Shown here one piece after another: positions 15,628 through 41,131 of a stretch of DNA of 44,860 nt. The stretch is from an uncultured Lentisphaerota bacterium (GTDB lineage Bacteria; Verrucomicrobiota; Lentisphaeria; Oligosphaerales; CAITYL01). The stretch covers positions 1 through 44,860 of the forward strand of contig CAITYL010000090.1 in the NCBI GenBank assembly GCA_903896595.1. Reading direction: 5' to 3'. How positions within the stretch are numbered: position 1 is the first letter of the stretch; each line of letters begins with the position of its first letter. The notes below the pieces were generated by a model that saw only the letters and a list, made by a program, of their open reading frames with translations, was not told where the DNA came from and searched no databases. The position numbers and the translations under genes were made by a program.

Positions 15628-15658
15628 ATTTATCACCTCCCTCCTATCGGCCGCGGGT

Positions 15659-17833: not shown

Positions 17834-17864
17834 CTGAGGTATCCTTTCGTTTGGGGATGTGATT

Positions 17865-18013: not shown

Positions 18014-18027
18014 AACATCATCGTCGA

Positions 18028-19599: not shown

Positions 19600-19712
19600 G
19601 GTCGGATTCCTTCTTTTTGGTTGAGCGGTTTTGGGGTTGGGTGGTTGTGGGGTTGAGGGGACAGGGAAGCAACGGATGTGGAGCGGAACGTGGCCATTGG
19701 CGGGGAGCCGGG

Positions 19713-20736: not shown

Positions 20737-23208
20737 TCATGCAATGTCCATGGCAAGGGTGGCGGCGGCGGTGGGGTCGGATTGGATGTGGCGATAGGCG
20801 GACGGATCCGTCGACGCCTCGACCGGACTCCACAACCCTTCCAGCACGGCGTCCCAGCTGGCGTCCTGGGCGTTTTTCAGGGCGCGTGTTCGAAGGATGG
20901 CGTGCAGGCGCGGATCCTCGCATAGCCGCCGCATGGCGTCCCCGAAGGCCGCCGGGTCATCGATGTTGATCACCAATCCCGAATCATGGACGCGGACGAT
21001 TTCTTGGGGGCCGCCGCGGTCGGTCACAATCGCCGGCAGGCCGCACGCCTGGGCTTCAAGGACGACATTGCCGAAGGTGTCCATGGCACTGGGGAAGGCG
21101 AACGCGTCGGCGCTGGCATAGGCGTTGGCGAGTTCCTCGCCATGGAGGAACCCGGTGAAGGCCACTGGCAGGTCTTGGCATTCCAACCTCAGTTCCTTTA
21201 GCAATGGCCCATCTCCCACCACCGCCAGGCTGGCGTTGATGCCCTGGGCGTGGAGTCGGCGGAACTGGTCCACCAGAAGCCGCAGATTTTTGTCGGCGGA
21301 AACCCGGCCCACGTAAAGAAAGGTGAACCCCGCGGGCAGGCCGCGGGCCGGCCAGAACCCGGCGGTGCGCCGTTCCGGGGCGAACAACGCGGTGTCGACT
21401 CCACGCGGCATGACCGTCAGCTTGTCCGGGGCGAACCCATTGGCGGTCAGGTGGCGGCGGTAATACTCGCTTGGCACAAATACCGTGTCGAGCTGGCCGA
21501 AAAACCACTGCATGTACCCCCAGGTGAGCTGTTCAATGGCTTCATCGTGGGTCAGGCAGCGGATGAGCAGCGGGAAGTCGGTATGGTAAATGCCGCGAAC
21601 CCGCAGACCCAGCAGACGTCCCGCCGCCAGCGCCGCCAGGCCGAGGGGGCCGGGCGTGGAGATGATCACTTCCGCAAACTTTTGTTCCTCAAAATACCGC
21701 AGCACGTCGAGGAAGGGCGGAAACACCATCTCCTGCATGTCGTATTCCGGCAGCGCAAAGGTGCCCACGGGGGTAAAGTTTTTCAGGTCCAAATCAAGTG
21801 CCGGGGGCGACGACAGGCAGGTGACGATCGTGAGTTGTCGCCCCTTGGCCTTGGACAGGGTGCCCAAGATCTGGATGGTCCGGGCCACGCCGTTGATATC
21901 GGAAAAGGTGTCGGTGACCCACGCCTTTTTCTCACTTGGCTGCGCCAGGTGTTGAGTGGCGGGGAATTGCCTGGCCACCGCCTGCAGGAAGCTTTCGTCC
22001 TTGTGTTGGGCGGTAAAAGCGGCCCAGTAGGGTGCGACGCTCAGGGCCAGCGGCCCGAGGGCGGCCGCGCTTTGGATGCTTTCCACAATCTCGCCCCGGC
22101 GCAGGCTGTCCACGAAGCGTCGGCAAAACGCATAGCCCAACTGGTGGGCAAGTATGGCCGCATGATCGAAGGTCCGTTCTTCACGCGGAGTGGGGGCGGT
22201 GCTGCACGTGCCGAGCAGCTGACGGATTTCCTGGATCAGCCAGGTTTCCGTGGTGGAACCGGGGCGCTGCCGAAACCACCGCATCTTCTCCCACAGCGTC
22301 CGGGCGGCGTCGCCGAAGGAGAATCGCTTGGGTTCCGGCGGTGTGATCAACCGGCCAAGCAGGGCGCCGAGCAACCCGCCGCCGGTTCCCGCCGCCATCC
22401 GTTGGGTGCAGAATTGGTACGCCGTGTGGTACAGACTGTGGGCGAGCTTGAGGCTGGTGCCGTTGGCGCCGGCCGCTTCGTGATCACCGCGCCGGAGATG
22501 ATCCAAAAAGTCCAGCACAGTCGCCGCCGGGGGGGTGGCGGTGTAGGTGTTGGCCAGGTAGAGGCCGCTGTGATCGTCGCTGCCGCCCGTGAGCGTCTTC
22601 ATCCAGGGTTGCTTCCCTACCGGTTGAATGCCATGATGATCGGCCATCTTGGCGATCAGTTCCGGGGTCAGGTTGCGGAGCACGGCGGTCGCCAGGTCAT
22701 TGGCCCGTGGGTGCCGTGACCCGTTAATGCCTTCAAAGCGGTTGAACAGCAGCAGCAGCTTCTCCACATGTTCGACCGTCAGCCGGCCATTGACCCGGAA
22801 CAGCGGATGGGCAATGCTGTGAATGATCTCCTGGCCGACCAGATAGTCACGGAATTCATAAATGTTGGCGCGGACGTGTTCGAGGTCGTGGAACTGCGCC
22901 TCGGTGATCCCGGAGACCACGCAATGGATCTTGCAGGCGTCCTCGGGAAAGTACGTGGTGATCTCCGCCGAGAGAAAGACCTTGGGGCGGTCGGCGATCT
23001 CCAAAACGCCGCGGAGGGAGTTGTGGTCGGAGATGGTGACAAAGTCCATGCCCTTGGCCAGGCAGCGCTGATAGATCTCCGCCGGTTCCGTGAAGCTTTC
23101 CGGGGCGCCGATCCGGCGCAGGAACCATTCGCTTGGCCGGTCGGAATATCGACTATGCACATGCAGGTCGGCTTTGGCCAATCGTGACGTGTCTGAATGC
23201 GGGATCAT
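20737..23208 (-). CDS. PHP-domain / GT4 glycosyltransferase fusion
   Basis: 823 residues from ATG 23208 (GGAAGGAG 6 bases upstream; the open frame extends to 23262). Residues about 12-230 form a PHP metallo-phosphoesterase domain with ADLHVHSRYSD (H16, H18, D23), FVTISDHNSLRG (D61, H62) and GGSDDHSG. A helical middle region leads to a GT-B glycosyltransferase: WVTDTFSDINGVARTI (acceptor loop), VPSEYYRRHL, VMPRGVDTALFAPE, FLYVGRVSADKNLRLLVDQF and MDTFGNVVLEAQACGLP (EX7E-type motif with Asp first). GT4 enzymes of this type glycosylate lipids. Next to an ornithine-lipid-type acyltransferase and PstS, a role in replacing phospholipids with glycolipids fits. The PHP part might remove a phosphorylated head group (inference). 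Confidence 0.87.
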   Translation of the reverse strand: MIPHSDTSRLAKADLHVHSRYSDRPSEWFLRRIGAPESFTEPAEIYQRCLAKGMDFVTISDHNSLRGVLEIADRPKVFLSAEITTYFPEDACKIHCVVSGITEAQFHDLEHVRANIYEFRDYLVGQEIIHSIAHPLFRVNGRLTVEHVEKLLLLFNRFEGINGSRHPRANDLATAVLRNLTPELIAKMADHHGIQPVGKQPWMKTLTGGSDDHSGLYLANTYTATPPAATVLDFLDHLRRGDHEAAGANGTSLKLAHSLYHTAYQFCTQRMAAGTGGGLLGALLGRLITPPEPKRFSFGDAARTLWEKMRWFRQRPGSTTETWLIQEIRQLLGTCSTAPTPREERTFDHAAILAHQLGYAFCRRFVDSLRRGEIVESIQSAAALGPLALSVAPYWAAFTAQHKDESFLQAVARQFPATQHLAQPSEKKAWVTDTFSDINGVARTIQILGTLSKAKGRQLTIVTCLSSPPALDLDLKNFTPVGTFALPEYDMQEMVFPPFLDVLRYFEEQKFAEVIISTPGPLGLAALAAGRLLGLRVRGIYHTDFPLLIRCLTHDEAIEQLTWGYMQWFFGQLDTVFVPSEYYRRHLTANGFAPDKLTVMPRGVDTALFAPERRTAGFWPARGLPAGFTFLYVGRVSADKNLRLLVDQFRRLHAQGINASLAVVGDGPLLKELRLECQDLPVAFTGFLHGEELANAYASADAFAFPSAMDTFGNVVLEAQACGLPAIVTDRGGPQEIVRVHDSGLVINIDDPAAFGDAMRRLCEDPRLHAILRTRALKNAQDASWDAVLEGLWSPVEASTDPSAYRHIQSDPTAAATLAMDIA

Positions 23209-23254
23209 GATGGCTCCTTCCGTGGCCTGGGCAACGCCAGAAGGTGGACGCGGC

Positions 23255-23316
23255 CCCGCCACTACTTAATACCAGCATACATGTGGTTGGTTAGGGCTTC
23301 ATGGGGAATTGGTTAG
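23255..23316 (-). promoter_or_regulatory. Pho-box-like array and promoter for the PHP-GT gene
   Basis: Read on the minus strand, CTAACCAA (23316-23309), CCCATGAA (23305-23298) and CTAACCAA (23294-23287) are each separated by 3 bp, an 11-bp period. A TATTAA hexamer follows 15 bases later. Three 8-mers with 3-bp gaps is the layout of cyanobacterial Pho boxes; identity as such is inference. Confidence 0.5.
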
Positions 23317-23448: not shown

Positions 23449-25356
23449 ATGATTCATTCCACGAAACCGGTCACCGCGGCGGCCCGACGCGGGTTTTCCC
23501 TCTTCTCGTCCCCTTGGCGGTGGCGTTCCCTCATGCCGAAGCCGTGGTTCCTTCCCGCAGGAGCGCCCGCCCCGGTTTCGGAGGACGTCTTTGCTTCTGG
23601 TTCCGGTCCATGGTCCGCCACCGGCGCGGATATTTTTCCGGCGGCGTTGGCGGCGTTCGGCCTGCAGGGCGAGGTGCCCGCGGTGGCGGCGGCCCGGATT
23701 CCGGCGGCCGGGCCGTTGGTTGTGGTGGTCAATCAGCCGTTTGACTTGGCCGCCTGCGTGGTTTTGGGTGCTTTCCTGCAACCGGTCAGACCGGACTTCA
23801 AGGTTTGGAACGGACATCAGCTCGGTTACTGGCCGGCCCTGAACCGGTACTGGCTCGGGGAGGCGGGAGGGCCGGCCGACGCCGGGCGACGCAACCAGTT
23901 GCGACTCATGAAACAAGCCCTAGCTTGGGTTCGCGCCGGCGGCGTGCTCGTGGTGGCGCTGCCGGGAGAGGAACGGCAACTGCCGTTGCGTTCCGTCGCG
24001 CCCGCGGTCCGCCGGATTGACCAGTTGCTGACCCGTTTGGTTCGGCGTACGGAAACCGCCGTGCTGCCAGTGTATATCCCCGGCCGCGGGCACTGGAAAC
24101 GCCCGGCCGTGGAGGCGTGGACGTCACCAGGATGGGAGAACACGTCGTTCCGTGGGGGCGAACGTATTCCGCGATATCGCGTTCCCGTGCGGGTTGGCGC
24201 CCTCCTGTCCCCGCTGCGGCTGGCGGCGCTGGCCACCGGTCCGGCCCTGATTCGGCATCTGCGGTTGCGCACCTACATGCTTCAGGGTTGCCAGGGGCCG
24301 GCCGCATCGGTTCCGGTTCGCGCCCGGTTCCAGCTGTTCCGCCGGCCGGCCGGGCAACCGCTCACCCCGGTGATCACTCCGATTTCCGGCGCCGCCGGAC
24401 AAGGGGAATTGGATGCCTTGCCGCCAGACCAGTGCTTGAGCGTCGGCGGTGAAACCGAAGTCTGGTATGCCACGGCCGGCCAAATTCCCCGGTTGTTGCG
24501 GGAAATCGGGCGGTTACGGGAAGTGACGTTCCGGCTGGCCGGGGAAGGGACTGGAAACCGCCTGGACCTGGACCGGCATGACGCCCATTATCTCCACTTG
24601 CTGGCGTGGAACCGGGAACACCAGGAAGTGATCGGCGCCTACCGCATGGGGCAGACCGACGTCATTCTGCCACAGTTCGGAATCAACGGGTTGTACGCCA
24701 ACTCCCTGTTCCATTTCCGGCGTGGCGTGGTGGAGGCGTTGGGACCCGCCCTGGAACTGGGCCGTTCCTTTGTCCGGCCTGAATATCAGCGGAACTTCAC
24801 GTCGCTGCTGTGCTTGTGGAAGGGGATTGGGAAGTTCGTGGCCCGGCACCCGCGCTATCGCCACCTGTTTGGTCCGGTGAGCATTTCCGACCACTATTTG
24901 CCCGTGTCCCGGCATCTGCTCGCCGCTTTTCTGCAAACCCGTCACGGTTTGCCCGCGATGGCCCGGGCGGTCCGGCCCCGCCATCCTTTCCGGGCGCTGG
25001 CCTGGGGTGGTGTCAGTATTCGGCGGGGCGCCGACGATTTTTTGGACTTGGACGAGGTGTCGCAGGTGGTGGCCGATCTGGAGGACGATGGCAAGGGGGT
25101 GCCGGTCCTGGTCCGGCAATACCTGAAACTGGGTGGGCGCATGATTGACTTCAATCTCGATCCAAAATTCAGCAACGTGTTGGACGGCTTGGTGTTGGTT
25201 GACCTTATGCGCACGGCGCCGCCGCTACTGGAAAAATATCTGGGCCGAGAGGGTGCGGCCATTTTTCGCCAGTATCAGCAGAGCCAGGGGCACGAGACGG
25301 CCGCCACCGCCGTTCCAAAAGGAGGACGAATTATCCGAACAATAATCAAGCGCTAA
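23449..25356 (+). CDS. OlsF-like two-domain acyltransferase (PlsC-like + OlsB-like GNAT)
   Basis: 635 residues. The N-terminal half has the layout of a PlsC/OlsA O-acyltransferase, but the motif normally read as NHPFG followed by Asp is NQPFDLAACV (residues 95-104): both His and Asp are gone, so this half is probably inactive. The C-terminal half is an OlsB/hemolysin-type N-acyltransferase: FRLAGEGTGNRLDLDRHDAH, HQEVIGAYRMGQT, GPALELGRSFVRPEYQRNF, LFGPVSISDHY. OlsB N-acylates ornithine, the first step to ornithine lipids; fused OlsA-OlsB order is known as OlsF. No signal peptide, as expected for a membrane-associated cytoplasmic enzyme. ATG 23449 has GGGAG about 9 bases upstream. The last 13 codons lie in the 71-bp repeat. 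Confidence 0.8.
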   Translation: MIHSTKPVTAAARRGFSLFSSPWRWRSLMPKPWFLPAGAPAPVSEDVFASGSGPWSATGADIFPAALAAFGLQGEVPAVAAARIPAAGPLVVVVNQPFDLAACVVLGAFLQPVRPDFKVWNGHQLGYWPALNRYWLGEAGGPADAGRRNQLRLMKQALAWVRAGGVLVVALPGEERQLPLRSVAPAVRRIDQLLTRLVRRTETAVLPVYIPGRGHWKRPAVEAWTSPGWENTSFRGGERIPRYRVPVRVGALLSPLRLAALATGPALIRHLRLRTYMLQGCQGPAASVPVRARFQLFRRPAGQPLTPVITPISGAAGQGELDALPPDQCLSVGGETEVWYATAGQIPRLLREIGRLREVTFRLAGEGTGNRLDLDRHDAHYLHLLAWNREHQEVIGAYRMGQTDVILPQFGINGLYANSLFHFRRGVVEALGPALELGRSFVRPEYQRNFTSLLCLWKGIGKFVARHPRYRHLFGPVSISDHYLPVSRHLLAAFLQTRHGLPAMARAVRPRHPFRALAWGGVSIRRGADDFLDLDEVSQVVADLEDDGKGVPVLVRQYLKLGGRMIDFNLDPKFSNVLDGLVLVDLMRTAPPLLEKYLGREGAAIFRQYQQSQGHETAATAVPKGGRIIRTIIKR

Positions 25357-25388
25357 CGAGGCCCGCACAATCACGGAATAGAGTCTCT
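25318..25388 (+). repeat. 71-bp repeat copy 1 with Pho-box-like array and -10 hexamer
   Basis: 67 of 71 bases equal 29414-29484. Inside, 8-mers with 3-bp gaps follow each other: TTATCCGA (25331), ATAATCAA (25342), CTAACGAG (25353) and CGCACAAT (25364), then TAGAGT (25379-25384). The first part is also the 3' end of the OlsF-like gene. It lies 139 bp before the pstS start and is the likely pstS promoter. Confidence 0.75.
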
Positions 25389-25527: not shown

Positions 25528-26589
25528 ATGAATGCCATGCAACACGGAGTCGCTTGGGTAATGCTGGCCGCAACGGCGTGTTTTTCCGCCTGCTGGGCGG
25601 CTGGAACCGATGACATCCTGACGGGGGCGGGCGCCACCTTTCCGGCGCCCCTGTACACCCGCTGGTGTGACCTCTATTTCCGGCAAATCGGCATGCGGGT
25701 CACCTACGATCCGGTCGGCTCCGGCACCGGGATCAGCCAGTTGTACGCCAAAACCGTCGACTGGAGCGGTTCCGACGCCTTCATCGCCGACGAGGATCTT
25801 ACCTCCACCTCCGCCCCGCTGGTTCACATTCCAACCTGCCTGGGCGCCGTGGCCATCATCTGCAACGTTCCCGACGCACCAGAAATCAACCTGACAGCGG
25901 CGCTCCTGGCGGACATTCTCCGCGGCCGGATCACCCTGTGGTCCGACCAACGGATTGCCGCCGTCAATCCGCAGCGGCACTTTCCAGATCTTGCCATCAC
26001 CGTGGTCCACCGTTCCGATGCCAGTGGCACCACCTTCATCCTGAGCGACTATCTGACCAAGGCCGCCCCCTCGTGGCGAAACTCACTGGGCCGCAACCGC
26101 CAGCTTTCCTGGCCGGTCGGCCTGGGGGTCGGCGGCAGCGAAGCCGTCGCCGCCATGGTTGGACGGATTCCAGGGGCCATCGGCTACACGGAAATGACGT
26201 ACGCCAAAAAGACCGGCATGCCCTGCGCCCGGATGCAAAACCGGCAGGGGGAGTTTCTGGCCCCCTCGGTCGAGACCATCATGGCCGCGGCACAGATCGA
26301 CCTTCCGACTGATACTCGCGTTTATCTGGGCGACACTCATGCCCCCCACGGCTATCCCATTGCCAGCTTCACTTGGGTCGTCTGCTATCGCGAACAGAAC
26401 TATGACCAACGGTCACGGGAACACGCCCGGCAACTCGCCAAGCTGCTGTGGTGGATGACCCACGACGGCCAACGCCAGATTGGCGGCCTGTCTTACGCGC
26501 CACTGCCGGATCCGGCCGTGAAGCACGCGGAGACCGTCCTGCGTTCCCTCACCTACAACAACCAATCCCTCCTGGAACATTTTCCGTGA
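25528..26589 (+). CDS. pstS: PstS-type phosphate-binding protein
   Basis: 353 residues. A signal sequence (GVAWVMLAATACFSACWAAG), possibly with a lipobox at one of the Cys, is followed by the PstS opening LTGAGATFPAPLYTRW. DPVGSGTGISQL and VHRSDASGTTFI are the two loops that hold phosphate oxygens in PstS. SWPVGLGVGGSEAVAAMV and AIGYTEMTYA complete the fold. It binds phosphate in the periplasm. No pstC, pstA or pstB is in the window, and the next gene is a sensor kinase whose GTG overlaps this stop (GTGA). A sensory rather than purely transport role is therefore possible. AGGAG lies 10 bases before the ATG. Confidence 0.88.
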   Translation: MNAMQHGVAWVMLAATACFSACWAAGTDDILTGAGATFPAPLYTRWCDLYFRQIGMRVTYDPVGSGTGISQLYAKTVDWSGSDAFIADEDLTSTSAPLVHIPTCLGAVAIICNVPDAPEINLTAALLADILRGRITLWSDQRIAAVNPQRHFPDLAITVVHRSDASGTTFILSDYLTKAAPSWRNSLGRNRQLSWPVGLGVGGSEAVAAMVGRIPGAIGYTEMTYAKKTGMPCARMQNRQGEFLAPSVETIMAAAQIDLPTDTRVYLGDTHAPHGYPIASFTWVVCYREQNYDQRSREHARQLAKLLWWMTHDGQRQIGGLSYAPLPDPAVKHAETVLRSLTYNNQSLLEHFP

Positions 26590-29090
26590 AACGACACGCA
26601 TTTCCCCTGCTTTTGGGAATGGTCCTCATGGCGGCAGCCACCGCTTTGGCCGAACCGGAGGTGCGGGTCGGAACCTATGATTTCCGTCCCCTGATGCAAA
26701 CCCGCGCCGGCGACGCCGACGGCGGCCTGTTTCCCGGCCTGCTGGCCGAGATCGCCCGGACCGAAGGGTGGAAAATCCGCCTGATCCCCGGCAGTCTGGA
26801 GGACGGCTGGGCCAGGCTAGCCAAAGGCGAGATCGACATCCTCGCCGCGGCCCCCTACGCCAAAAGCCGCCCCCCCCCGGTTGTCTACTCGAAGGAATCG
26901 GTGTTCTCCACGTGGGCACAGGTCTATGTGCCACACCGGCAACGGTTGGAGACCGTGCTGGAGTTGGGCGGCAAGACCGTCGCCGTATGCCAGAACGATC
27001 CCTATGCCGCGGAACTGGCGAACCTGACCGGCGGCTTTAGCATCACCTGCACCCTCGTACAGTGCAAGAGCAATGCGGACGTGCTGAATGCCGTAAGCCG
27101 GAAATGGGTGGACGCGGGAGTGGTGGACCGCCTGTATGGCAGCCGATACGAAAGACTGTATGCCGTCACGCGCACGTCCGTGCTTTTCGCCCCGATGGAC
27201 CTGCGTTTCGCCGCCGGCCAGGGCCAGGCCGTTCCCCTGCTGCACAGCATCGATTACGCCCTGCGCAAAATGAAGGAGGATCCGCATTCCGCCTATTACG
27301 CACTCGTCAACCACGCGCTGGGCCAGGAAACCGAAACGGAACGTACCGGATGGCCGCGGCTGGCGCTGGCCGGCCTGGGCGTACTCGGACTGAGCGCGGC
27401 TTGGATCATCATCCGCCTTCGCCGCCAAGTCGTGCAGACCGCCGGCAAACTGACGGAAAAAGAACACGTTCTGAAGGTGGAAATCCTTTCGCGCCGGCAG
27501 GCCGAAAGCAATATGCGGGAGTTCAGTCAGTTGCTGGAGAGGGTGTTCGGCACCCTGCACGACGGCATCCTTGTCCTCGATCCCAAGTGGCAGACGATCA
27601 TCCGTGCCAACCCGGCGGCAACGACCATGTTTGAAGCCCGCGACGACGACGCGTTTTTGGCCACCGCCCCGCCAGATCTTTTTCCCTCGCCAGAAACGTT
27701 TGCCGCCTTCACCCGGAACGTCACCGACGGCATTACCGGACAAGGATTCGCGCGCCTCGACCTCCAGTTGTCCCGCCACGACCGCCGGCTTTTTCCGGCC
27801 GAAATGGTGGTCTCTCCGGTCCTGGACGGCCAAAAATGCCCCATTTGCCTGGTCGTCGTCATCCGCGACACCACGGCGCAGGCGGCGGCGCTGGCCGCCC
27901 TTCAGGAAAGCGAAAAACACCTCCGGCATGCCCAGAAGATGGAGGCCCTGGGCACCCTGGCGGGAGGCATCGCCCACGATTTCAACAACCTGCTCATGCC
28001 GATCCTCTGCGGGACAGAAATCCTCCTGGCCGACGAACCACCGGCAAGCCCGCGGCAAAACGAACTGGAAAGCATCCGTGAGGCCGGCCTGCGGGCGCGG
28101 GATCTCATCAAGCAAATCCTCCTCTTCAGCCGCCCCATGGAGGGCGATTGCCAGCCACTGCAAGTGCGGCCCGTGATGGCGGAGGTGCTCAAGTTTCTAC
28201 GCTCCACCCTGCCCGCCACCGTGGAAATCCGGAAGACTGTCGCGGCAAAAAACGACTGGGTGCTGGCAAACCCGGTGCATATTCACCAAGTCCTGCTCAA
28301 CCTATGCACCAACGCCGCCCATGCCATGCGCGAAAAAGGCGGCGTATTGGAGGTTGGGCTGCAAAATTTTGACGGCACTCCCCACGGCATCGCGGGCAAT
28401 GTCCAGCCACTACCCGGACGTTATATCGTGCTGTCGATCTGCGACACCGGGCACGGCATGGACCATACTCTGATGGAGCGTATCTTCGACCCGTTCTTCA
28501 CGACCAAGAAGACTGGCGAGGGGACCGGCATGGGGCTGTCCATCGTCCACGGCATTGTGCATCGTTGCGGCGGCTGCATCGCCGTGAAAAGCGAGGTCGG
28601 ACGCGGCTCCGTTTTCCGCGTGTACTTGCCCGCCACCGCCCCTCCCGACAAAACGGCCGCCCTGCCGGCGGCGGACCTCACTGCCGGAACCGAACGCCTC
28701 CTGATCGTTGACGACGAAGCCGCCCTCGGCCACGCCTTGAAACGCTCCTTGGAACGCCTCGGGTACCAGGCGGTCGTCTGTCCGGACGCTGCCCATGCGC
28801 TCCACCTCTTCCGCCAGACCCCAACGGCATTCGACAGGGTCATCTCCGACCAAACCATGCCCGGCATGACGGGAACGGAGCTGGCCCGCGAACTCCGCCG
28901 TATCCGCCCCGACATGCCGATTATTCTTTGTTCCGGATACAGCGACGTGTCGCTCCAAGAGACGGCCCGACAAGCCGGCGTTCAGGCCTTCATGCACAAG
29001 CCGTTTTGTGCCAAAGAACTGGCGGCCGTCATGCAGCGTCTCGCCAGCCAGGCGCCGCCGCCCCTGCAACCGGCATGCCTGCCGGGGTGA
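26586..29090 (+). CDS. Hybrid histidine kinase with periplasmic SBP_bac_3 sensor domain
   Basis: 834 residues from GTG 26586, overlapping the pstS stop by 4 bp. A signal segment (FPLLLGMVLMAAATALA) precedes a periplasmic solute-binding type 3 domain (about 24-250) and one transmembrane helix (257-277). A coiled linker and a PAS domain follow. The HisKA H-box is LAGGIAHDFNNLL (H464). The ATPase has NLCTNAAHAM, the G1 box SICDTGHGMD, FFTTKKTGEGTGMGLSIVHG and GRGSVFRVYLP. A C-terminal receiver has LLIVDDE, the phospho-acceptor in VISDQTMPGM (D755) and MHKPF. No output domain: it must pass phosphate to a regulator elsewhere. Coupling with pstS suggests sensing of phosphate, bound PstS or an amino-acid-like ligand. 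Confidence 0.9.
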   Translation: MKRHAFPLLLGMVLMAAATALAEPEVRVGTYDFRPLMQTRAGDADGGLFPGLLAEIARTEGWKIRLIPGSLEDGWARLAKGEIDILAAAPYAKSRPPPVVYSKESVFSTWAQVYVPHRQRLETVLELGGKTVAVCQNDPYAAELANLTGGFSITCTLVQCKSNADVLNAVSRKWVDAGVVDRLYGSRYERLYAVTRTSVLFAPMDLRFAAGQGQAVPLLHSIDYALRKMKEDPHSAYYALVNHALGQETETERTGWPRLALAGLGVLGLSAAWIIIRLRRQVVQTAGKLTEKEHVLKVEILSRRQAESNMREFSQLLERVFGTLHDGILVLDPKWQTIIRANPAATTMFEARDDDAFLATAPPDLFPSPETFAAFTRNVTDGITGQGFARLDLQLSRHDRRLFPAEMVVSPVLDGQKCPICLVVVIRDTTAQAAALAALQESEKHLRHAQKMEALGTLAGGIAHDFNNLLMPILCGTEILLADEPPASPRQNELESIREAGLRARDLIKQILLFSRPMEGDCQPLQVRPVMAEVLKFLRSTLPATVEIRKTVAAKNDWVLANPVHIHQVLLNLCTNAAHAMREKGGVLEVGLQNFDGTPHGIAGNVQPLPGRYIVLSICDTGHGMDHTLMERIFDPFFTTKKTGEGTGMGLSIVHGIVHRCGGCIAVKSEVGRGSVFRVYLPATAPPDKTAALPAADLTAGTERLLIVDDEAALGHALKRSLERLGYQAVVCPDAAHALHLFRQTPTAFDRVISDQTMPGMTGTELARELRRIRPDMPIILCSGYSDVSLQETARQAGVQAFMHKPFCAKELAAVMQRLASQAPPPLQPACLPG

Positions 29091-29271: not shown

Positions 29272-29413
29272 AACCGGTACTTGACGGTAATCAGACATAA
29301 ACAATTGGGGGGTAAACTAGTCCTTGTACAGTCGGGTTTCGTTCAACCGCCGGGCGAGTGAGGACCGGACCCAAAAGGCGGACCGAATCCCGGCGCCACC
29401 AGGGCAAAAACCG

Positions 29414-29484
29414 AAAGGAGGACGAATTATCCGAAAAATAATCAAGTGCTAACCAGGCCCGCACAATCGCGGAATAGAGTCTCT
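29414..29484 (+). repeat. 71-bp repeat copy 2 with Pho-box-like array and -10 hexamer
   Basis: Four mismatches from 25318-25388. The 8-mers are TTATCCGA (29427), ATAATCAA (29438), CTAACCAG (29449) and CGCACAAT (29460), then TAGAGT (29475-29480). It is entirely intergenic, 116 bp before the secreted-protein start at 29601. Conservation beyond the coding use of copy 1 argues for a regulatory role. Confidence 0.75.
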
Positions 29485-29600
29485 GGTAGCGATGCGGAAT
29501 CCGTCCGCCGGCCCGGTTCCTGGAAATGGTGACCCGGGGCGGGGACGGAAGAAGTCGAGCCATGACCACCAACCACAACGACAGGGTAACAGGAGAAGAT

Positions 29601-30644
29601 ATGAAGTTCAAAAAACAAACCAGGAAAGTAGTGACGGCGTTTCAAGCCGCCGTTCTGCTGGTGATGGCCGCCCACTCGGCCAGCGCCGTCGGCGGGTACA
29701 ACGAAATCGCCGTGCTTGCAAACTCGGACGCGTTTATCTCCGTTCCGTTCACCAAGACCGCCGAGGGCGCGTTCACGGTCAGTGCCGTGACGGGTGCCGT
29801 CGTGACGGTTTCCAACACGTTGACGACGGACGCCTACGCCCCCGTTGACGGCAACGCCCGCTACTATGTGCGCCTCACCGGCGGCACCGCCAGCGAAGGC
29901 CTATGGAGCAGCATCAGCGCGAACGGGACGCACAGCTTCACCCTGGCCAACGCCACCGTGGCGGCCAAGGTAAGCGTGGGCGACACGTTCACCGTCTACC
30001 CGCACCAGACGCTTGCCTCGTTGTTCCCGGCCGGCCGTGAAGGGGTCTCCTTCATTACCGCCGGTGACGAGGGGCTCGATCCGGCGGCCACGGTCGTCCT
30101 CGTCAAAGACACCCAAGTGGGCACCGACAAGGCTGCATCCCAGGTGTGTTCGCACTTGGGGCAATACGGCTGGTACGATGGCGCCGGCACTCCGGTCAAT
30201 GATTTGGCGTTAGAACCCGGCACCTTCATCCAGATCCGCAATGCGGATGAAGCGAAAGCACTCGACATCTTCGTGTCCGGCGACGTTCCGGACACCAAGC
30301 TGGCGTCCGCTCTCGTCACCAGCGCGAGCGACAATGACCTGTACTTGGTCAACCCCTTCCCGGTGGATGTCCGTTTGGGCCAACTGGGATTGGAGAACTG
30401 GGCGTCATCCGAGGATGCAGCCACGTTCGGCGGCCTGGTTCTGCTGTACGACAATGCCGCGGCCGGAACCGACAAGTCGGCCAGCACCATTTGTTTCTAC
30501 CTGACCGGTGGCGACAACAACTGGTACGATGGGGACGGCACCAATGCCAATTCCCTTGTGATTCCCGCCGGCATGGGCGTGGTGCTCCGCGACTCCAGCG
30601 GCGTGCCCGGCAATGGCGTTTGGACCGTAAATAAACCGTACTGA
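29601..30644 (+). CDS. Secreted TIGR02597-like protein
   Basis: 347 residues from ATG 29601 (AGGAGAAG 6 bases upstream; the frame opens at 29526). A signal peptide (AFQAAVLLVMAAHSASA) is followed by a two-part beta-rich body. Landmarks are EIAVLANSDAFISVPFTK near the start, ARYYVRLTGGTASEG, FTVYPHQTLASLFP, TDKAASQVCSHLGQYGWYDG and the parallel TDKSASTICFYLTGGDNNWY, then a final GMGVVLRD. That pattern is what I know from TIGR02597-family proteins of Verrucomicrobia. It starts a plus-strand run of secreted proteins. Function unknown; probably extracellular or outer-membrane. Confidence 0.78.
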   Translation: MKFKKQTRKVVTAFQAAVLLVMAAHSASAVGGYNEIAVLANSDAFISVPFTKTAEGAFTVSAVTGAVVTVSNTLTTDAYAPVDGNARYYVRLTGGTASEGLWSSISANGTHSFTLANATVAAKVSVGDTFTVYPHQTLASLFPAGREGVSFITAGDEGLDPAATVVLVKDTQVGTDKAASQVCSHLGQYGWYDGAGTPVNDLALEPGTFIQIRNADEAKALDIFVSGDVPDTKLASALVTSASDNDLYLVNPFPVDVRLGQLGLENWASSEDAATFGGLVLLYDNAAAGTDKSASTICFYLTGGDNNWYDGDGTNANSLVIPAGMGVVLRDSSGVPGNGVWTVNKPY

Positions 30645-31297: not shown

Positions 31298-31339
31298 CCA
31301 TCAAAAAAGAAATTGAAACCTCAAAAGGAAATTAAGCTC

Positions 31340-33076
31340 ATGAAAAAAACAACCCTCGCGCTTATGGGCATGGCCGCGGCCATCGCCGGCACCGGCATCG
31401 CCCCGGCGGCGACCGTCACGGTGTCCAATGACATCACGACCTCCACCACCTGGTCGGCCAGCAACGTGTACGACATGACGAAGCAGATCTACGTCAAGCC
31501 GGGCGCGACCCTGACCATTCAGGCCGGCACCGTCTGCAAAAGCGCCGGCGGCGGCAGTCTGGCGGTCTGCAAAGGCGCCAAGATCTACGTCAACGGCACA
31601 GCGGCGCACCCGGTCATCATGACCTCCGAAGCGGATACCATGACCGGTTGGCGCGAAGCCTGCACGGAGTGGGGCAATCTGACGATCATGGGCAAAGCCT
31701 TGATCTCCGGTTCCCACTTCGCCGGGGTTCCGTACGTCCGGCCCGGCACGGCTCTCACGAACACCAAGGTGCCCGACGGCACCAACGTGCGGCAAATGGA
31801 AGGGCTGACGGCGGCGTATGCCGGCGACCCGAACGTGATGTACGGCGGTAACGACGACAACGACAACAGTGGCGCGATCCACTACCTGTCGCTCCGCTAC
31901 GGCGGCAAGGTGCTGGGGCTCACCAACGAGCTGAACGGCCTGTCCCTGGGCGGCATTGGCCGTGCCACGGAGATCGATCACGTCGAAATCATGAACAATG
32001 TGGACGACGGCATCGAAATCTGGGGCGGCACGGTCAACCTGAAATACATCAGCATCTGGAATGTCGGCGATGACAGCTTAGATGTTGACCAGGGCTGGCG
32101 CGGCAAGGCCCAGTTCGGCCTGATTGTGCAGGGCAGCAGCGCCAATGCCACGCAGGGCTCGGGGGTGGGTGACAACGTATTTGAGGTTGACGGCGCGGAG
32201 GATAGCGACGCGCAACCGGTGACCTCGGCCTGCATCTACAACTTCACCTGCATTGGCCAGCCCGTGGTTGGCGACCAGGGCACGGCGTGGCGTGACGGCG
32301 CCCGCGTCCAGTATCGCAACTGCATTTGGATGGACTTGGGCGAGGCGCTCGTCAAAAACGACAACGTCGATGGTGATGGCGCGCAGGGGTATGGCCTCAA
32401 CGGCACCCTGACCTTTGCTCAAATCTGGACGACGGCGTACAACAGCTACTCGCAGGTCAACAAAGGCACGTTGAACGCGGCGGGCTTGGCGAGCCTTTAT
32501 CAGGCGCAGAGCTCGGGCAAGATGGCGGAGATCAAGGACAGTGTGTTCTACAATAACCTGTTCGCGAGCGCCTACACCGCGGCGGACACCGCGGGCGTGC
32601 GCGCCGCGGCCAACAATAACGTGACCGCCTCCAGCAGCCCGATCAAGAGCCTCACCCGCGGTACGGCGTTGACCCGGGCAGGCGGCAGCCTCTATCCGGT
32701 CACCAACGTGGATCCGCGCGCGGCCAACGATGCGGTCGCCAGCGTCGCGGCAGCGCCGGCCGACGGGTTCTTCTCCCCGGCCAACTATCGCGGCGGCTTT
32801 GATGCCGATGTGAACTGGCTGAAGGGCTGGACCGCCGCCGATGCCTATGGCATGCTGGCCGCCAGCAGCTCCGAGACGGCTTCCGTTCTTGAGCTGACCG
32901 CGACGACCTTCTACCAGACGACCGTGGGCGCGAACTACAAGGTTCAGTCCTCGACCGACATGGTCAACTGGGCGACGGATGCCACGGTGGTCGGCGACGG
33001 CACCATCAAGTCGGCGACCGACTTGGCCACGCCGAACTCCACCAAGAAGTTCTATCGCGTGCTGGCCGTCCAATAA
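31340..33076 (+). CDS. Secreted beta-helix-like protein
   Basis: 578 residues from ATG 31340 (AAAAGGAAA upstream; the frame opens at 31313). Signal peptide TLALMGMAAAIAGTGIAPAA. The N-terminal half has parallel-beta-helix style rungs (IYVKPGATLTIQAGTVCKS, GAKIYVNGTAAHPVIMTS). A repeated D/N/G-rich region follows (VEIMNNVDDGIEIWGGTVNL, then DDSLDVDQGWRGK), which may bind Ca2+. The C-terminus (ANYKVQSSTDMVNWATD, then FYRVLAVQ) is the YxVQSSTDxxNW module common in Verrucomicrobia secreted proteins. Followed by a terminator at 33097. Confidence 0.72.
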   Translation: MKKTTLALMGMAAAIAGTGIAPAATVTVSNDITTSTTWSASNVYDMTKQIYVKPGATLTIQAGTVCKSAGGGSLAVCKGAKIYVNGTAAHPVIMTSEADTMTGWREACTEWGNLTIMGKALISGSHFAGVPYVRPGTALTNTKVPDGTNVRQMEGLTAAYAGDPNVMYGGNDDNDNSGAIHYLSLRYGGKVLGLTNELNGLSLGGIGRATEIDHVEIMNNVDDGIEIWGGTVNLKYISIWNVGDDSLDVDQGWRGKAQFGLIVQGSSANATQGSGVGDNVFEVDGAEDSDAQPVTSACIYNFTCIGQPVVGDQGTAWRDGARVQYRNCIWMDLGEALVKNDNVDGDGAQGYGLNGTLTFAQIWTTAYNSYSQVNKGTLNAAGLASLYQAQSSGKMAEIKDSVFYNNLFASAYTAADTAGVRAAANNNVTASSSPIKSLTRGTALTRAGGSLYPVTNVDPRAANDAVASVAAAPADGFFSPANYRGGFDADVNWLKGWTAADAYGMLAASSSETASVLELTATTFYQTTVGANYKVQSSTDMVNWATDATVVGDGTIKSATDLATPNSTKKFYRVLAVQ

Positions 33077-34406: not shown

Positions 34407-34544
34407 GGCTTGGGCGGGCACGGGAGAATGAAACAGGAGTTTCTGAACACTGCACACCGAACACCCGGCCGGCAAAATGAGGTTTTGCAAGCGCCTCGTT
34501 ACACACTCAACTTGCGCCGCCATCGAACGCGAAAAACCACTAGT

Positions 34545-37500
34545 ATGCCATCATTTTCCAAGCGGTTTAAAGCCATGTTTTGGGTACGCTCGCGGCGCGC
34601 GTTACGCCGCTGGCTCCGGCGACGGGGAATTCGGTTCACGTCGCCGTTCGACACGGTTACGGTGTTCCGGGTGGCCAGCGGCGTGGTGCTGCTCGCCACC
34701 GCGACGGTGGCGGCGCAGCAGCCGGTGGGGTCGATCCGCGGCTCGGTGCGGGACGCGGATTTCTCCATGCCGCTGGTCAGCGCCCAGGTGTCCATTGCGG
34801 AAACCGGGGAAAAGTGCGCCACCACCGAGGATGGCACGTTCGTTTTTGGCAAGGTGCCGCCGGGCAGCTACACCCTGCTCCTGGCCAAAGACGGCTATAC
34901 CCGGCAGGTGCAACCCAACGTGGTGGTGGCGCCGGGACAGATGACGGACGTGGAAACCGCCATGACCGGTGAATTCACCGACATGGACGAGTTTATCATC
35001 AAGGACTTGAATCTTGATGGCGGCACGGATGCCGGCTTGCTGACCTTGCGCGCGGAAAGTCCGGCGCAGATGAACTCGGTCAGTTCCAGCATGATCAGCC
35101 GGGCGGGCGCCAGCGATGCCGCCGCCGCCCTGAAACTGGTCTCGGGCGCGACGGTGCAGGACGGCAAATACGCCGTGGTCCGCGGCCTCCCGGGCCGTTA
35201 CGTCAGTTCCCAGATGAACGGGGTCCGGTTGCCCACGGCGGACGCGAACAAACGCGCAGTGCAACTCGACCAATATCCCGCGGTGCTGATCCAGAGCATT
35301 CAAGTCAGCAAAACCTTTACTCCTGATCAACAGGGTGATGCCTCCGGCGGCGCCGTGAATTTGGTGCTTAAGGGCATTCCCGATGAGACGGGCGTACAAT
35401 TCAAGGCCGGCACCAAATACAACACCCAGGTGACGGGACGGGACGATTTTCTTACCGCCAAGGGGGACGGCATGAATTTCTGGGGCGAGAGCACCGGTAG
35501 CCAGGCAAGACCCATCGATGGCAAATCCCAAGGGGCCGTGGGAGTGTCCCGCACGGAGTCGCCGATCGACAGCGACTGGTCGCTGACCGCCGGCGGCAAA
35601 AAGCAGGGCGGCGACGCCAAATTTGGCGGCTTGGCCAGCCTGTATTACAAGCGGGACAGCGCGTTTTGTGACAACGGGGTCAACGATAAATACTGGGTCA
35701 AAAAACGCGGCGACCCGATGACCCCGCGCTACAGCCAGGGAACGCCAGAGGATGAAAATTTCAAAACCTCGCTGTTTGACGTGACCACCGGCAGCGAAAA
35801 AATCCAGTGGGGCGGCTTGGGCGCCTTGGGAGTGGAAACCGAAAAACATTCACTGGCCTTGCTTTATATGCATACCCAAGTGGGGGAGAATACGGCTATG
35901 CTGTCCGAAGACACGCGCGGCAAAGCCTATTTTTTTCCGGGATATAAGGTTAACAATCCGGACCATCCCGGCAATCAGAATCCGCAAGCGGCGCCTTATC
36001 TGCGCACCGAAGCGTTGGAATACACCGAGCGGACCACGGACACCTTACAAGTGAAGGGGACACATGTGTTGCCAACCCCGGAGTTCAAGCTTGGCACCTT
36101 TTTCGGCCTGTTGGAACCGGAACTGGACTGGACGGTGGCCCAAAGTGCCGCCGGTTTCAACAGTCCAAACAAGCGGTTGTTCGGTTCGATGTGGGTGCCG
36201 GAACACCTTGAAAGTAGCTGGCCGCCCGGCAGCCCGCCGACCTCGATTCCCGCGACTTACTACCCCTATAAGCCCGCCGCCAACTTTACCATGGGCAACG
36301 TGCAGCAGGTCGCGAAAGACATCAACGAGGACAGCGGGCAATTTTTCATCAATGGCAAACAACCGTTTGAGCAGTGGAGCGGCGACCGCGGCTATTTGAA
36401 ACTGGGCGTGTTCTATGACCAGGTGGACCGCACGTACGACCAGGAGTCCTTCAGCAACCTGAACGACAACAGCTCGTACGAAGGCAAGTGGAACGACTAC
36501 TGGAGCGCGGCATGGCCAAACCAGAAGCACCGGATGAGCCCGGTGAATATCGACGTGGATTACACAGGCAAACAAAAGATTTTTGCCGACTATGCCATGC
36601 TGGACCTGCCGCTGTGTCCGTACCTCAATGTGATCGGCGGCGCCCGGTATGAAACCACCGACCTCAGCATTGTCAACTCACCCGACAAGGGAGTGACATG
36701 GATCGACAAGGGGCAGGAGGTCGTGCTGAAGCCCGGCGATGCCGATGTGGCGTTCAAGCAAAAGGATGTCTTGCCGGCACTCGAGTTGGTCATTAAACCG
36801 ATCAAGCAAATCGAGTTACGGCCGTCTTACAGTGAAACGGTGGCCCGCCAGACCTTCAAGGAATTGTCGCCCATCCAGCAGACGGAATACCTTGGCGCCG
36901 ATGTGTTTATTGGCAACCCTGAGTTGCAGATGAGCGCGGTAAAAAACTACGACCTGCGTTTGGATTACACCCCGTATGAGGAAGGTTTGGTCTCGGTTTC
37001 CTGGTTCCGGAAAGACATTACAGATCCGATCGAATATGTGCAACGCTACGCGACCAATGTCGGGTCCTACACCACCGCCGTGAATTACCCGGAGGGCACG
37101 CTGACCGGTTATGAAATCGAGGCGCGGCAGAAAATGGAGATGTTCTGGGATCCACTCAAGGGGCTGACCTTGGGCGCCAACGCCACCTTTATCCAAGCCA
37201 CGGTGACCCTGCCGGAAGACGAAATCAAGAAATTTGCGTTGATCAAGTTCCCGACCGATGAGCGGGACATGATGAACACCCCGGAATACCTCTACAATCT
37301 ATTCATGATGTACGACTTGGATGACAAAACGCAGTTTTCCATTTTTTACACGGTGCAAGGCGACACGCTGGTGGCCGGCGCCGGGGCTCAGGGCGAGTAC
37401 ACTCCGGATGTCTATGCCAAGGAGTATGGCACCCTCAATCTGACAGTATCCCGAAAACTTGGCAAGTACTGCAAGTTGTCGTTTCAAGCCAAGAACCTGC

Positions 37501-37613
37501 TGAATCCGGAAATTCAGGAAGTGTACCGTTCGCCATACGTTGACGGCGACACGGTCAAAACCTCCTACACCAAAGGCATCGAATTCCAGATCAGCTTGGG
37601 GGTGGAGTTTTGA
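34545..37613 (+). CDS. TonB-dependent outer-membrane receptor
   Basis: 1022 residues from ATG 34545; the start is uncertain (frame open from 34410, weak ribosome sites). A basic N-terminus and signal segment (VFRVASGVVLLATATVAAQQ) are followed by a carboxypeptidase-regulatory-like beta domain (SIRGSVRDADFSMPLVSAQV, DGTFVFGKVPPGSYTLLL). The TonB plug follows (SRAGASDAAAALKLVSGATV, YAVVRGLPGRYVSSQMNGV), then a long beta barrel ending in the aromatic residue of IEFQISLGVEF. It imports a substrate too large for porins using TonB energy. The substrate is not visible; the neighbourhood hints at a phosphorylated compound (inference). It heads the operon with DUF3450, ExbB, ExbD and TonB. Confidence 0.9.
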   Translation: MPSFSKRFKAMFWVRSRRALRRWLRRRGIRFTSPFDTVTVFRVASGVVLLATATVAAQQPVGSIRGSVRDADFSMPLVSAQVSIAETGEKCATTEDGTFVFGKVPPGSYTLLLAKDGYTRQVQPNVVVAPGQMTDVETAMTGEFTDMDEFIIKDLNLDGGTDAGLLTLRAESPAQMNSVSSSMISRAGASDAAAALKLVSGATVQDGKYAVVRGLPGRYVSSQMNGVRLPTADANKRAVQLDQYPAVLIQSIQVSKTFTPDQQGDASGGAVNLVLKGIPDETGVQFKAGTKYNTQVTGRDDFLTAKGDGMNFWGESTGSQARPIDGKSQGAVGVSRTESPIDSDWSLTAGGKKQGGDAKFGGLASLYYKRDSAFCDNGVNDKYWVKKRGDPMTPRYSQGTPEDENFKTSLFDVTTGSEKIQWGGLGALGVETEKHSLALLYMHTQVGENTAMLSEDTRGKAYFFPGYKVNNPDHPGNQNPQAAPYLRTEALEYTERTTDTLQVKGTHVLPTPEFKLGTFFGLLEPELDWTVAQSAAGFNSPNKRLFGSMWVPEHLESSWPPGSPPTSIPATYYPYKPAANFTMGNVQQVAKDINEDSGQFFINGKQPFEQWSGDRGYLKLGVFYDQVDRTYDQESFSNLNDNSSYEGKWNDYWSAAWPNQKHRMSPVNIDVDYTGKQKIFADYAMLDLPLCPYLNVIGGARYETTDLSIVNSPDKGVTWIDKGQEVVLKPGDADVAFKQKDVLPALELVIKPIKQIELRPSYSETVARQTFKELSPIQQTEYLGADVFIGNPELQMSAVKNYDLRLDYTPYEEGLVSVSWFRKDITDPIEYVQRYATNVGSYTTAVNYPEGTLTGYEIEARQKMEMFWDPLKGLTLGANATFIQATVTLPEDEIKKFALIKFPTDERDMMNTPEYLYNLFMMYDLDDKTQFSIFYTVQGDTLVAGAGAQGEYTPDVYAKEYGTLNLTVSRKLGKYCKLSFQAKNLLNPEIQEVYRSPYVDGDTVKTSYTKGIEFQISLGVEF

Positions 37614-37657
37614 ACAAACATAAATTCAACTCGGATGATGAAAGGACACCTGCGATA

Positions 37658-38422
37658 ATGAAACGATCGGCATGGATGACCGCGGCCTGGATGACCGCGA
37701 CCTTGGGCTGGGCTGGCGCGGTGATGGCGCAATCCGCGGACGACACCGAACGGGCGGCGGCGGAAAAATGGATCGAAACGCGTCATGTGATCTCGCTGGA
37801 ACAGCAGGATTGGCGGTTGGGCAAGGAATTGCTCACGGACCGGGCGCGGGTGTTGGAGAAGGAGTTGGCGACGGTCCGGGAAAAAACCACCCAGGCCGCC
37901 AGCGAGACGGCCGAGGTGGACCGGAAACTGGCCGAGGCGCGGGCGCGCAATGACCAGCTTATCGCGGCCGAAACGCGGATGCGGGAGGCCGTAACCGTTC
38001 TCGAAACGCGCCTGCCCGGATTGCTGGCCCGCACCCCGGAGCCCGTGCGCGAACGCATAAAACCGCTGATTCAGCGCCTGCCGCAGAACCCGGCGGAGAC
38101 CAAGATCAGCCTGCCGGAACGCTTCCAAAACGTGATCGGTATTTTGAACGAAATCGGCAAGGCCAATGGCGAGGTGACGGTGGCCACGGAGATGCGCACA
38201 CTGGCCGATGGCCGCCCGGCCGAGGTCAAAACGCTCTACATCGGCTTAGGCCAGGCTTATTATGTGAGTGCCAAGGGCGAGGCCGGTACCGGCCGGCCCG
38301 GCGCCGCCGGGTGGGACTGGCAACCCGCCAACGGCTTGGCCGCCAGCGTCACCGAGGCCATGCAGATCATGCAAAACAAGGCCACGCCGCACTTTGTGCC
38401 GTTACCCGTCAAAATACCCTGA
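37658..38422 (+). CDS. DUF3450-like periplasmic coiled-coil protein
   Basis: 254 residues from ATG 37658 (GAAAGGA about 11 bases upstream). An alternative TTG 37610 overlaps the receptor stop. Signal peptide WMTATLGWAGAVMA. A long coiled coil (about 35-125, REKTTQAASETAEVDRKLAE) is followed by a globular C-terminal part (EVKTLYIGLGQAYYV). DUF3450 proteins occur directly upstream of ExbB in TonB operons of Shewanella and Vibrio type and probably work with the ExbB periplasmic domain. Confidence 0.8.
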   Translation: MKRSAWMTAAWMTATLGWAGAVMAQSADDTERAAAEKWIETRHVISLEQQDWRLGKELLTDRARVLEKELATVREKTTQAASETAEVDRKLAEARARNDQLIAAETRMREAVTVLETRLPGLLARTPEPVRERIKPLIQRLPQNPAETKISLPERFQNVIGILNEIGKANGEVTVATEMRTLADGRPAEVKTLYIGLGQAYYVSAKGEAGTGRPGAAGWDWQPANGLAASVTEAMQIMQNKATPHFVPLPVKIP

Positions 38423-40083: not shown

Positions 40084-40487
40084 AAGTCCAAGCCTATGCC
40101 TTCAAACGGTCGCGGATTGAGATTGTCCCCCTGATCGACGTCATTTTTTTCTTGCTGGCGACGTTTATCATGGTCTCCCTGTCAATGACCAAAAACCAGG
40201 GGTTGCAGGTGCAATTGCCCGGGGCGAGCACGGCGGCGAAGATTGATGACCGCGAAAAGGCGGCCACTCTGACCGTCCGGCAGAACGGCGAGGTCTATTT
40301 CAACAAGGACAAGGTGACCGTGGCGCAACTGCCGTTCAAGCTCCAGACCTACAAAGCCGGCGCCAAAGATCCCAAGGTGGTGGTCAGTGGCGAAGCCAAT
40401 GCCGACTTTCGCTTCGTGGTCGCCGTGCTGGACGAGGCGCGCAAGGCGGGCATTCTGAAAGTTGGCATTTCAACGGAGAAGAAATGA
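40080..40487 (+). CDS. exbD: ExbD/TolR-family protein
   Basis: 135 residues. One N-terminal membrane helix with the key Asp: IVPLIDVIFFLLATFIM. The periplasmic domain has the ExbD pattern ATLTVRQNGEVYFNKDKVTV and RFVVAVLDEARKAGI. Overlaps exbB and tonB by 4 bp on each side, so the three are translated together. Confidence 0.92.
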   Translation: MKVQAYAFKRSRIEIVPLIDVIFFLLATFIMVSLSMTKNQGLQVQLPGASTAAKIDDREKAATLTVRQNGEVYFNKDKVTVAQLPFKLQTYKAGAKDPKVVVSGEANADFRFVVAVLDEARKAGILKVGISTEKK

Positions 40488-41131
40488 AAGCTGCGCCGAT
40501 CGCGTGTTTCTTGGCCGCCGTGCTGATGTTGGCGGGCTTCCTGCTTTTCGGCGGGTTGTTGCTGTTTCCCCAGCATAGCGCCCGGAAAGCGGCGCTGGAG
40601 GACGTCGCCATTGAGGAGGAGGCCAAACCGGAGAAGCCGGAAGAAAAACAGGCCAAGGAACTTGAGGTTGAGAAACGCGAGCGGCCGGAGGAGGCGCCAC
40701 CGGAATTGAAGGAGACGGCGATGCCGCTGGACCTGTCGCAACTCGAGATGGCGCTCAACCCTGGCGATGGCGATGGGATCGGCGGCGATTTCGCCGTCAA
40801 ATTGTCCGTGGCCACGGCCAGCGGCAGCATTCAAGCGGGTGAGGAAATTTTCTCACTCGCCGATCTGGATCAGGAACCGCGCGTTGTTTTCCAGCCCGCG
40901 CCTCAGTATCCGCCCGAATTGAAAAAGAAAAAAATCCAAGGCACTGTGCATGTTCTGTTCATGGTGGAAAAAGACGGCCGCGTGAAGGATCCCAAAATTC
41001 AGAAATCCGACCAGGCCGAATTTGACACTCCCGCGATCAATGCCGTGAGACGCTGGCGGTTTGAGCCAGGGAAACGGAATGGCCAACCGGTTCCCTTCCG
41101 GATGCGCGTGCCGTTGACGTTCGCGCTGTAA
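40484..41131 (+). CDS. tonB: TonB-family energy transducer
   Basis: 215 residues. An N-terminal membrane anchor (IACFLAAVLMLAGFLLFGGL), a Glu/Lys/Pro-rich periplasm-spanning region (about 40-75) and a C-terminal TonB domain: QPAPQYPPELKKKKIQGTVH, VLFMVEKDGRVKDPKI, AINAVRRWRFEPGKRNGQPV, VPLTFAL. Carries ExbBD energy to the receptor encoded upstream. Confidence 0.92.
   Translation: MKAAPIACFLAAVLMLAGFLLFGGLLLFPQHSARKAALEDVAIEEEAKPEKPEEKQAKELEVEKRERPEEAPPELKETAMPLDLSQLEMALNPGDGDGIGGDFAVKLSVATASGSIQAGEEIFSLADLDQEPRVVFQPAPQYPPELKKKKIQGTVHVLFMVEKDGRVKDPKIQKSDQAEFDTPAINAVRRWRFEPGKRNGQPVPFRMRVPLTFAL

Follow-up and report, generated by a model that had tools for sequence, protein, structure and literature searches.

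On the contig CAITYL010000090.1 of an uncultured Lentisphaerota bacterium (assembly GCA_903896595.1), a gene for the phosphate-binding protein PstS overlaps the gene of a hybrid histidine kinase, and we propose that this PstS probably serves as a dedicated periplasmic phosphate receptor or co-receptor of the adjoining kinase and not as an importer subunit. The whole stretch of 44,860 nucleotides (nt) that was analysed, positions 1 to 44,860 of the contig, is called the window here. We favour a direct pair because the two genes overlap, no importer genes adjoin them, the arrangement recurs in other genomes, importer PstS proteins are separate from it, the phosphate site is kept, the kinase-linked PstS share a sequence signature, the neighbouring genes point to phosphate starvation, and there are precedents for kinases served by a substrate-binding protein (SBP). 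The parts of the pair, all on the plus strand, are as follows:

25528..26589 (+), pstS, encoding the kinase-linked PstS, 353 amino acids with a signal peptide (TIGR00975, E. coli PstS structures, residue check)
26586..26589 (+), GTGA overlap of the kinase start GTG (26586-26588) and the pstS stop TGA (26587-26589), read in the sequence
26586..29090 (+), hybrid histidine kinase, 834 amino acids (Pfam domains)
26652..27350 (+), periplasmic SBP_bac_3-type sensor of the kinase, residues ~23-255 (AlphaFold, Foldseek, hmmsearch)
27357..27419 (+), transmembrane segment, residues ~258-278 (hydropathy)
27531..27884 (+), PAS domain (PF13426/PF08448)
27948..28637 (+), HisKA, with phospho-acceptor H464 at 27975-27977, and HATPase_c (PF00512, PF02518)
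28701..29030 (+), C-terminal receiver, with phospho-acceptor D755 at 28848-28850 (PF00072)

The GTGA overlap at 26586-26589 had been described in a sequence-only reading of this DNA, and the open reading frames, their coordinates and the overlap all proved exact. Such an overlap would couple translation of the kinase to that of pstS. The same reading had stated that no permease or ATPase genes adjoin the pair, and indeed PstC, PstA and PstB are not found among the annotated genes of the window. No response regulator gene adjoins the kinase at the locus.

The protein encoded by the first gene is a genuine member of the PstS family. It reaches 286.6 bits with the TIGR00975 equivalog model (cut-off 205), its best matches in the PDB are E. 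coli-type PstS structures (phmmer, E 1e-65), and all eight residues that contact phosphate in the E. coli protein (T10, F11, S38, D56, R135, S139, G140, T141) are identical in it. Its gene is not linked to those of PstC-PstA-PstB; importers are encoded on other contigs, with other PstS.

The kinase consists, in this order, of a signal peptide, a periplasmic Venus-flytrap domain, one transmembrane segment, PAS, HisKA, HATPase and a receiver (REC), after which the protein ends. The terminal receiver was recognized by the sequence-only reading and corresponds to PF00072 with D755. The periplasmic SBP_bac_3 domain that it also proposed reaches only 17.4 bits in the window protein against a Pfam cut-off of 26.4, but the score of the ortholog lies above that value (29.1 bits) and a confident structural model agrees. 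In this AlphaFold model (predicted local distance difference test, pLDDT, 92.6; predicted TM-score, pTM, 0.86) the sensor is a single Venus flytrap. Foldseek places it with glutamine- and arginine-binding proteins and with the kinase sensor 3h7m at a TM-score of ~0.8, and a profile search with the sensor (hmmsearch) also reaches BvgS and EvgS.

The rest of the window's genome (assembly G000, 5.8 Mb, 92% complete) encodes three further PstS proteins, on contigs C327, C342 and C41. These share only 19-22% identity with the window PstS and are of other PstS types. The gene order on C327 is PhoB, PhoR, porin, PstS and PstC-like permease, and C342 is a near copy; C41 carries PstS-PstC-PstA, and PhoU is encoded on C345. 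Because PstC/PstA-type permeases, PhoB-PhoR, PhoU and PstS of other types are all present elsewhere, the pair supplements a phosphate machinery that looks complete and does not replace it. The sequence-only reading had suggested that a direct PstS-kinase sensory pair would differ from the PhoR/PhoU route. The sensory pair stays the best reading, but it is no substitute for PhoR/PhoU, as pstC/pstA, phoU and phoB-phoR were all found on other contigs once the genome was searched. An orphan PhoB-like regulator was considered as partner of the kinase and rejected, since both PhoB-like regulators of the genome adjoin a PhoR-like kinase. As a separate observation, near-identical copies of the PhoBR/porin/PstS/PstC region lie on contigs C327, C342 and C173 (loci L005, L006, L275), which is either a real duplication or a mixture of strains in the assembly.

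We searched for the pair in four sets of genomes: 60 relatives, 388 genomes of the phylum, 84,980 genomes scanned with the window PstS, and 46 genomes of the UBA6106 class. A kinase with the window-type sensor occurs in 10 of the 60 relatives, and only in Lentisphaerae bacterium RIFOXYA12_64_32 (G005) does a PstS stand beside it. The two proteins of G005 are 54% (PstS) and 46% (kinase) identical to those of the window, and their genes are separated by a 2-nt gap (TGAACATG) instead of overlapping. The G005 pair is flanked on one side by a phoU-pstSCABB cluster and on the other by genes for betaine lipid, namely btaA (DUF3419) and one for a btaB-like methyltransferase; a gene for a PHP-domain/glycosyltransferase fusion (50% identical to that of the window) follows past the bta genes, and further on comes a second pst cluster with a porin. 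Among the 388 genomes of the phylum, pair-type PstS stands out in two, G000 (E 1e-202) and G179 (E 1e-192), the next match being at 1e-114. In G179, a Verrucomicrobiota genome, PstS is 44% and the kinase 33% identical, and the genes overlap by TGATG.

When the 84,980 genomes were scanned, 62 loci came back, and PstCAB follows PstS in most of them. The scan also led to the deltaproteobacterial UBA6106, where PstS is followed by a hybrid kinase and an OlsF gene lies on the other side; pstBBAC-phoU is likewise among the neighbours. The kinase of this type has no flytrap, its sensor being a four-helix bundle with HAMP (PF12729 4HB_MCP, PF00672). Six of the 46 genomes of the class carry the pair (G411, G421, G422, G423, G426 and, on two contigs, G448). 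A second PstS of the same family, accompanied by pstCAB, is present in G411 and G421, and G448 also holds such a locus, with a PstS that is probably separate. Conservation of the pair in relatives, on which the sequence-only reading had staked its proposal, is thus of a mixed kind: the pair recurs in several lineages and with two unrelated sensor domains, but it is sparse and missing from the closest sampled genomes. PstS matches in viral contigs and plasmids were also inspected and set aside as general PstS.

The kinase-linked PstS proteins resemble each other in what they have kept and in what they have lost. All ten of them keep the eight phosphate-contact residues, with one T-to-S exchange in G179. 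As a reference for the losses we took 53 importer-linked PstS, among which 90 positions are at least 85% conserved. Each pair group lost ten of these 90 positions, and six losses are common (K18, N32, Q34, I36, G40 and G138 in E. coli numbering), for which the hypergeometric P is 6e-5 under independence of the groups. Over twelve marker positions the mean match to the E. coli residue is 9.4 for importer PstS, 9.2 for other importer-less PstS and 0.6 for pair PstS, figures that carry less weight than the 90-position test since the markers were picked from a smaller set and on overlapping data. In the tree, which has long branches, one clade (100/99) unites the kinase-linked PstS of the UBA6106 class and is separate from that of its importer PstS (100/99), and another (95/91) joins the window PstS to that of G005. 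The tree itself places the pair groups apart; a tree with all pair PstS in one clade is not significantly worse by the approximately unbiased (AU) test (p 0.16). Judged by their sequences, kinase-linked PstS are a recognisable class, with an intact ligand site and alterations at formerly constrained positions. A broader proposition has in our estimate an even chance of being right: a kinase-dedicated PstS subfamily, defined by the six lost positions and the intact phosphate site, would serve hybrid kinases of two sensor folds, in at least two bacterial lineages, as a phosphate receptor that does not depend on transport.

A possible course of signalling by the pair can be outlined. The GTGA overlap, if it couples translation, would fix the ratio of PstS to kinase. 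PstS would bind phosphate through its canonical site, the residues of which are observed, presumably with high affinity. Either the unliganded or the liganded PstS would then dock on the periplasmic sensor, that is, on the Venus flytrap here and on the four-helix bundle in the UBA6106 lineage, and docking would switch the kinase between kinase and phosphatase activity. The phosphoryl group might pass from H464 to D755 and on to a response regulator encoded away from the locus, directly or via a histidine phosphotransfer (Hpt) protein. Probable targets are the phosphate-sparing neighbours, namely the OlsF-like and PHP/glycosyltransferase lipid enzymes and the TonB-receptor operon described below; their association with the pair is observed, and their regulation by it is presumed. 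In this way external phosphate would be reported, in parallel with PhoR/PhoU, independently of any flux through an importer.

In the usual view, external phosphate is sensed through PstSCAB flux and through PhoU acting on PhoR. If our assumptions are true, then a PstS tied to its own hybrid kinase separates sensing from transport, and some cells may sense phosphate without importing it. With the pair one could ask directly whether a kinase can be driven by nothing more than the phosphate occupancy of PstS. Further, the signature helps to spot sensory PstS, which annotation pipelines now label as importer subunits.

Several observations weigh against a dedicated receptor. Firstly, neither of the two genomes sampled from the same family has the pair, nearly all of the order lacks it, and PstS stands beside only 3 of 30 aligned kinases of the window sensor family. 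Secondly, a cognate response regulator for the pair was not found. Thirdly, when the DNA ahead of the pair, of the lipid genes and of the pst and related loci was searched for E. coli-type Pho boxes, none beat shuffled sequence except for weak ones (lowest p 0.035 among 17). Further, the window sensor may have a ligand of its own, as suggested by the Arg/Asp pair which binds amino acids in the SBP_bac_3 fold and which is kept in the sensors of the window and G005. Finally, the shared signature may reflect common descent instead of convergence, that is, one origin with transfer.

Some of these points lead to the chief rival explanation, in which PstS is a spare scavenging SBP of the Pho regulon that feeds a PstCA encoded elsewhere, and the kinase merely shares its operon and senses an amino-acid-like ligand via its own flytrap. 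Permeases of the PstC/PstA type do exist on other contigs, the Arg and Asp of the ligand site speak for such a ligand, and the flytrap can work without PstS because most kinases of the sensor family have none beside them. Yet the PstS-linked kinase of the UBA6106 class has no flytrap at all, and a separate importer PstS accompanies pstCAB in the same genome. Pair PstS have also lost positions that importer PstS conserve, and the other PstS proteins of the window's genome are distant from that of the pair and of other types. We consider the spare scavenger unlikely. The direct sensory pair put forward by the sequence-only reading is supported by recurrence, by two sensor folds, by separate importer PstS and by the signature; the physical binding and the phosphate signal are the parts that we infer.

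The genes around the pair, together with a direct repeat that brackets it, are:

20737..23262 (-), PHP-domain/glycosyltransferase fusion, probably a synthase of phosphate-free glycolipid (50% identity to the G005 copy beside btaAB and the pair)
23449..25356 (+), OlsF-like bifunctional ornithine-lipid acyltransferase (NF052615 OlsF, 259 bits, cut-off of 620 not reached; PF13444)
25315..25388 (+), copy 1 of a 74-nt direct repeat, 3' end of the OlsF-like gene and leader, upstream of pstS (repeat search)
29411..29484 (+), copy 2 of the repeat, 93%, upstream of the gene after the kinase (repeat search)
29526..30644 (+), TIGR02597 family protein, likely start 29601 (159.8 bits)
30668-31297, PEP-CTERM gene
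31313..33076 (+), repeat-rich exported protein ("31313 protein"), with which the conserved part of the TonB-receptor operon begins in relatives (50-72% identity)
34410..37613 (+), TonB-dependent receptor (PF00593, PF07715)
37610..38422 (+), DUF3450, TtpB-like (PF11932; PMC6957404)
38311..40083 (+), ExbB/TtpC-like proton channel, true start probably downstream (PF01618)
40080..41131 (+), ExbD and TonB (PF02472, PF03544)
41223..42596 (+), TPR protein in a TtpD-like position

The window OlsF-like protein is 36% identical to the OlsF beside the UBA6106 pair. In Desulfovibrio alaskensis, growth at low phosphate needs OlsF and a lipid glycosyltransferase (PMC5193443). Downstream of the pair the order is TIGR02597, PEP-CTERM, 31313 protein (its structural model is poor, pLDDT 59), TPR, TonB-dependent receptor, DUF3450, ExbB, ExbD, TonB and TPR. 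This TonB-receptor operon is shared with Kiritimatiellae-like genomes (loci L264-L271; 31313 protein and receptor 45-72% identical); it did not turn up in those sampled from the order to which the window belongs. It comes after a PhoB-like regulator in G061, G134 and G087; the best model for these regulators is TIGR02154, with 257-259 bits for the two that were scored, just under the cut-off of 296. In G134 the operon is accompanied by a PHP/glycosyltransferase gene, in G061 by a Ppx/GppA-like gene. The operon is thus a candidate for a phosphate-regulated outer-membrane uptake system, and the neighbourhood as a whole is consistent with an association with phosphate starvation, its regulation being presumed.

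Given such an operon at 29.5-42.6 kb, PstS might alternatively be the periplasmic carrier of the adjoining TonB-dependent system, for phosphate or a phosphorus compound, with the kinase regulating this system without touching PstS. A Bacteroidetes contig on which the receptor, a 31313-like protein and a window-type PstS stand in a row fits this idea, as does the PhoB-like regulator ahead of the operon in Kiritimatiellae-like genomes. We regard it as improbable, for no such operon lies near the pairs of G005 and the UBA6106 class, and G179 carries its pair and its operon on different contigs. It would be very surprising if the SBP sensed not phosphate but another oxyanion such as arsenate, in the way that ArrX serves its kinase: AioX and ArrX do form SBP-kinase pairs for arsenic oxyanions, and ArrX binds arsenate and phosphate (PMC5908839), but they belong to a PhnD-like subfamily and not to PstS, the eight phosphate contacts are present, the neighbours are phosphorus-sparing lipid genes, and no arsenic gene is among the annotated genes of the window.

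The two copies of the 74-nt repeat bracket the pstS-kinase unit, copy 1 spanning the last codons of the OlsF-like gene, and may represent a duplicated promoter or leader or an insertion scar. An RNA element was rejected, as the leader part folds no better than shuffled sequences, and so was a genome-wide operator, as only two copies exist in the genome even with three mismatches allowed. No Rfam elements were found in 20000-44860.

Other features of these loci are recorded in their own right. A protein of ~577 amino acids is encoded at L270:3423-5159 (-) and L178:2221-3954 (-), the two being 43% identical; in two phyla it lies near the phosphate-linked operon or near PHP/glycosyltransferase and PstS genes, with no Pfam match for the L178 copy and no NCBIfam match for the L270 copy. 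A family of exported proteins of ~210 amino acids adjoins the PhoB-like regulator of the TonB operon (L264:2327-2989, L267:6151-6789, L270:5320-5940). In the window, genes for a Ser/Thr protein kinase, a PP2C phosphatase and a von Willebrand A protein are consecutive at 241-3627 (-), and a run of small genes at 12000-19842 (-), with PD-(D/E)XK nuclease and DUF932 proteins, resembles plasmid or phage cargo. The gene at 42599-44860 (+) has many InlB-type repeats of 75 amino acids and runs off the contig end; a stretch of the PEP-CTERM gene at 30668-31297 recurs in part of its 5' region (72% over 121 nt).

No earlier report of a PstS-kinase pair was found in the open-access literature; subscription papers were outside the scope of this search, so novelty is not proven by it. 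Among known systems, TorS and LuxQ are hybrid kinases. Docking of an SBP on a kinase is established for TorT-TorS, LuxP-LuxQ and XylFII-LytS (PMC6321045), in all of which, as in the window, the gene of a periplasmic SBP accompanies that of a membrane kinase with a periplasmic domain. The sensor of TorS is all-helical, as that of the UBA6106-type kinase appears to be. In the window, adjacency to such a kinase is present, co-expression is suggested by the overlap, and the SBP is distinct from that of the importer (in the own genome, in G411 and in G421, with separate clades). Unlike in systems of the TorT-TorS kind, the SBP here is a PstS, from an importer family, the kinase has its own flytrap, and the locus contains no cognate response regulator beside it.

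The docking of a PstS on the sensor domain of a membrane receptor has a precedent in Pseudomonas aeruginosa, where PstS docks on the helical sensor domain of CtpL and reports low phosphate (PMC6321045). CtpL, however, is a chemoreceptor that shares the importer PstS, whereas the target in the window would be a histidine kinase and the PstS a dedicated, diverged copy. AioX/ArxX/ArrX-AioS (PMC5908839) are similar in that an oxyanion-binding SBP dedicated to sensing is encoded with a kinase; theirs is a PhnD-like SBP for arsenic oxyanions, and that of the window is a true PstS with a phosphate site. With PhoR/PhoB and PstSCAB-PhoU the pair has the theme of phosphate limitation in common. There PstS acts through the importer and PhoU, while in the window no importer adjoins the kinase, which is of the hybrid type with a large sensor in the periplasm and has neither the architecture of PhoR nor an adjacent PhoB. 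BvgS/EvgS (PMC8534201) share with it the SBP_bac_3-type periplasmic sensor, PAS, HisKA, HATPase and REC; the window kinase differs from them by one flytrap in place of the tandem, by the absence of a further receiver and C-terminal Hpt relay, and by the attached SBP gene. By our reading, PstS would stand to the window kinase as TorT stands to TorS.

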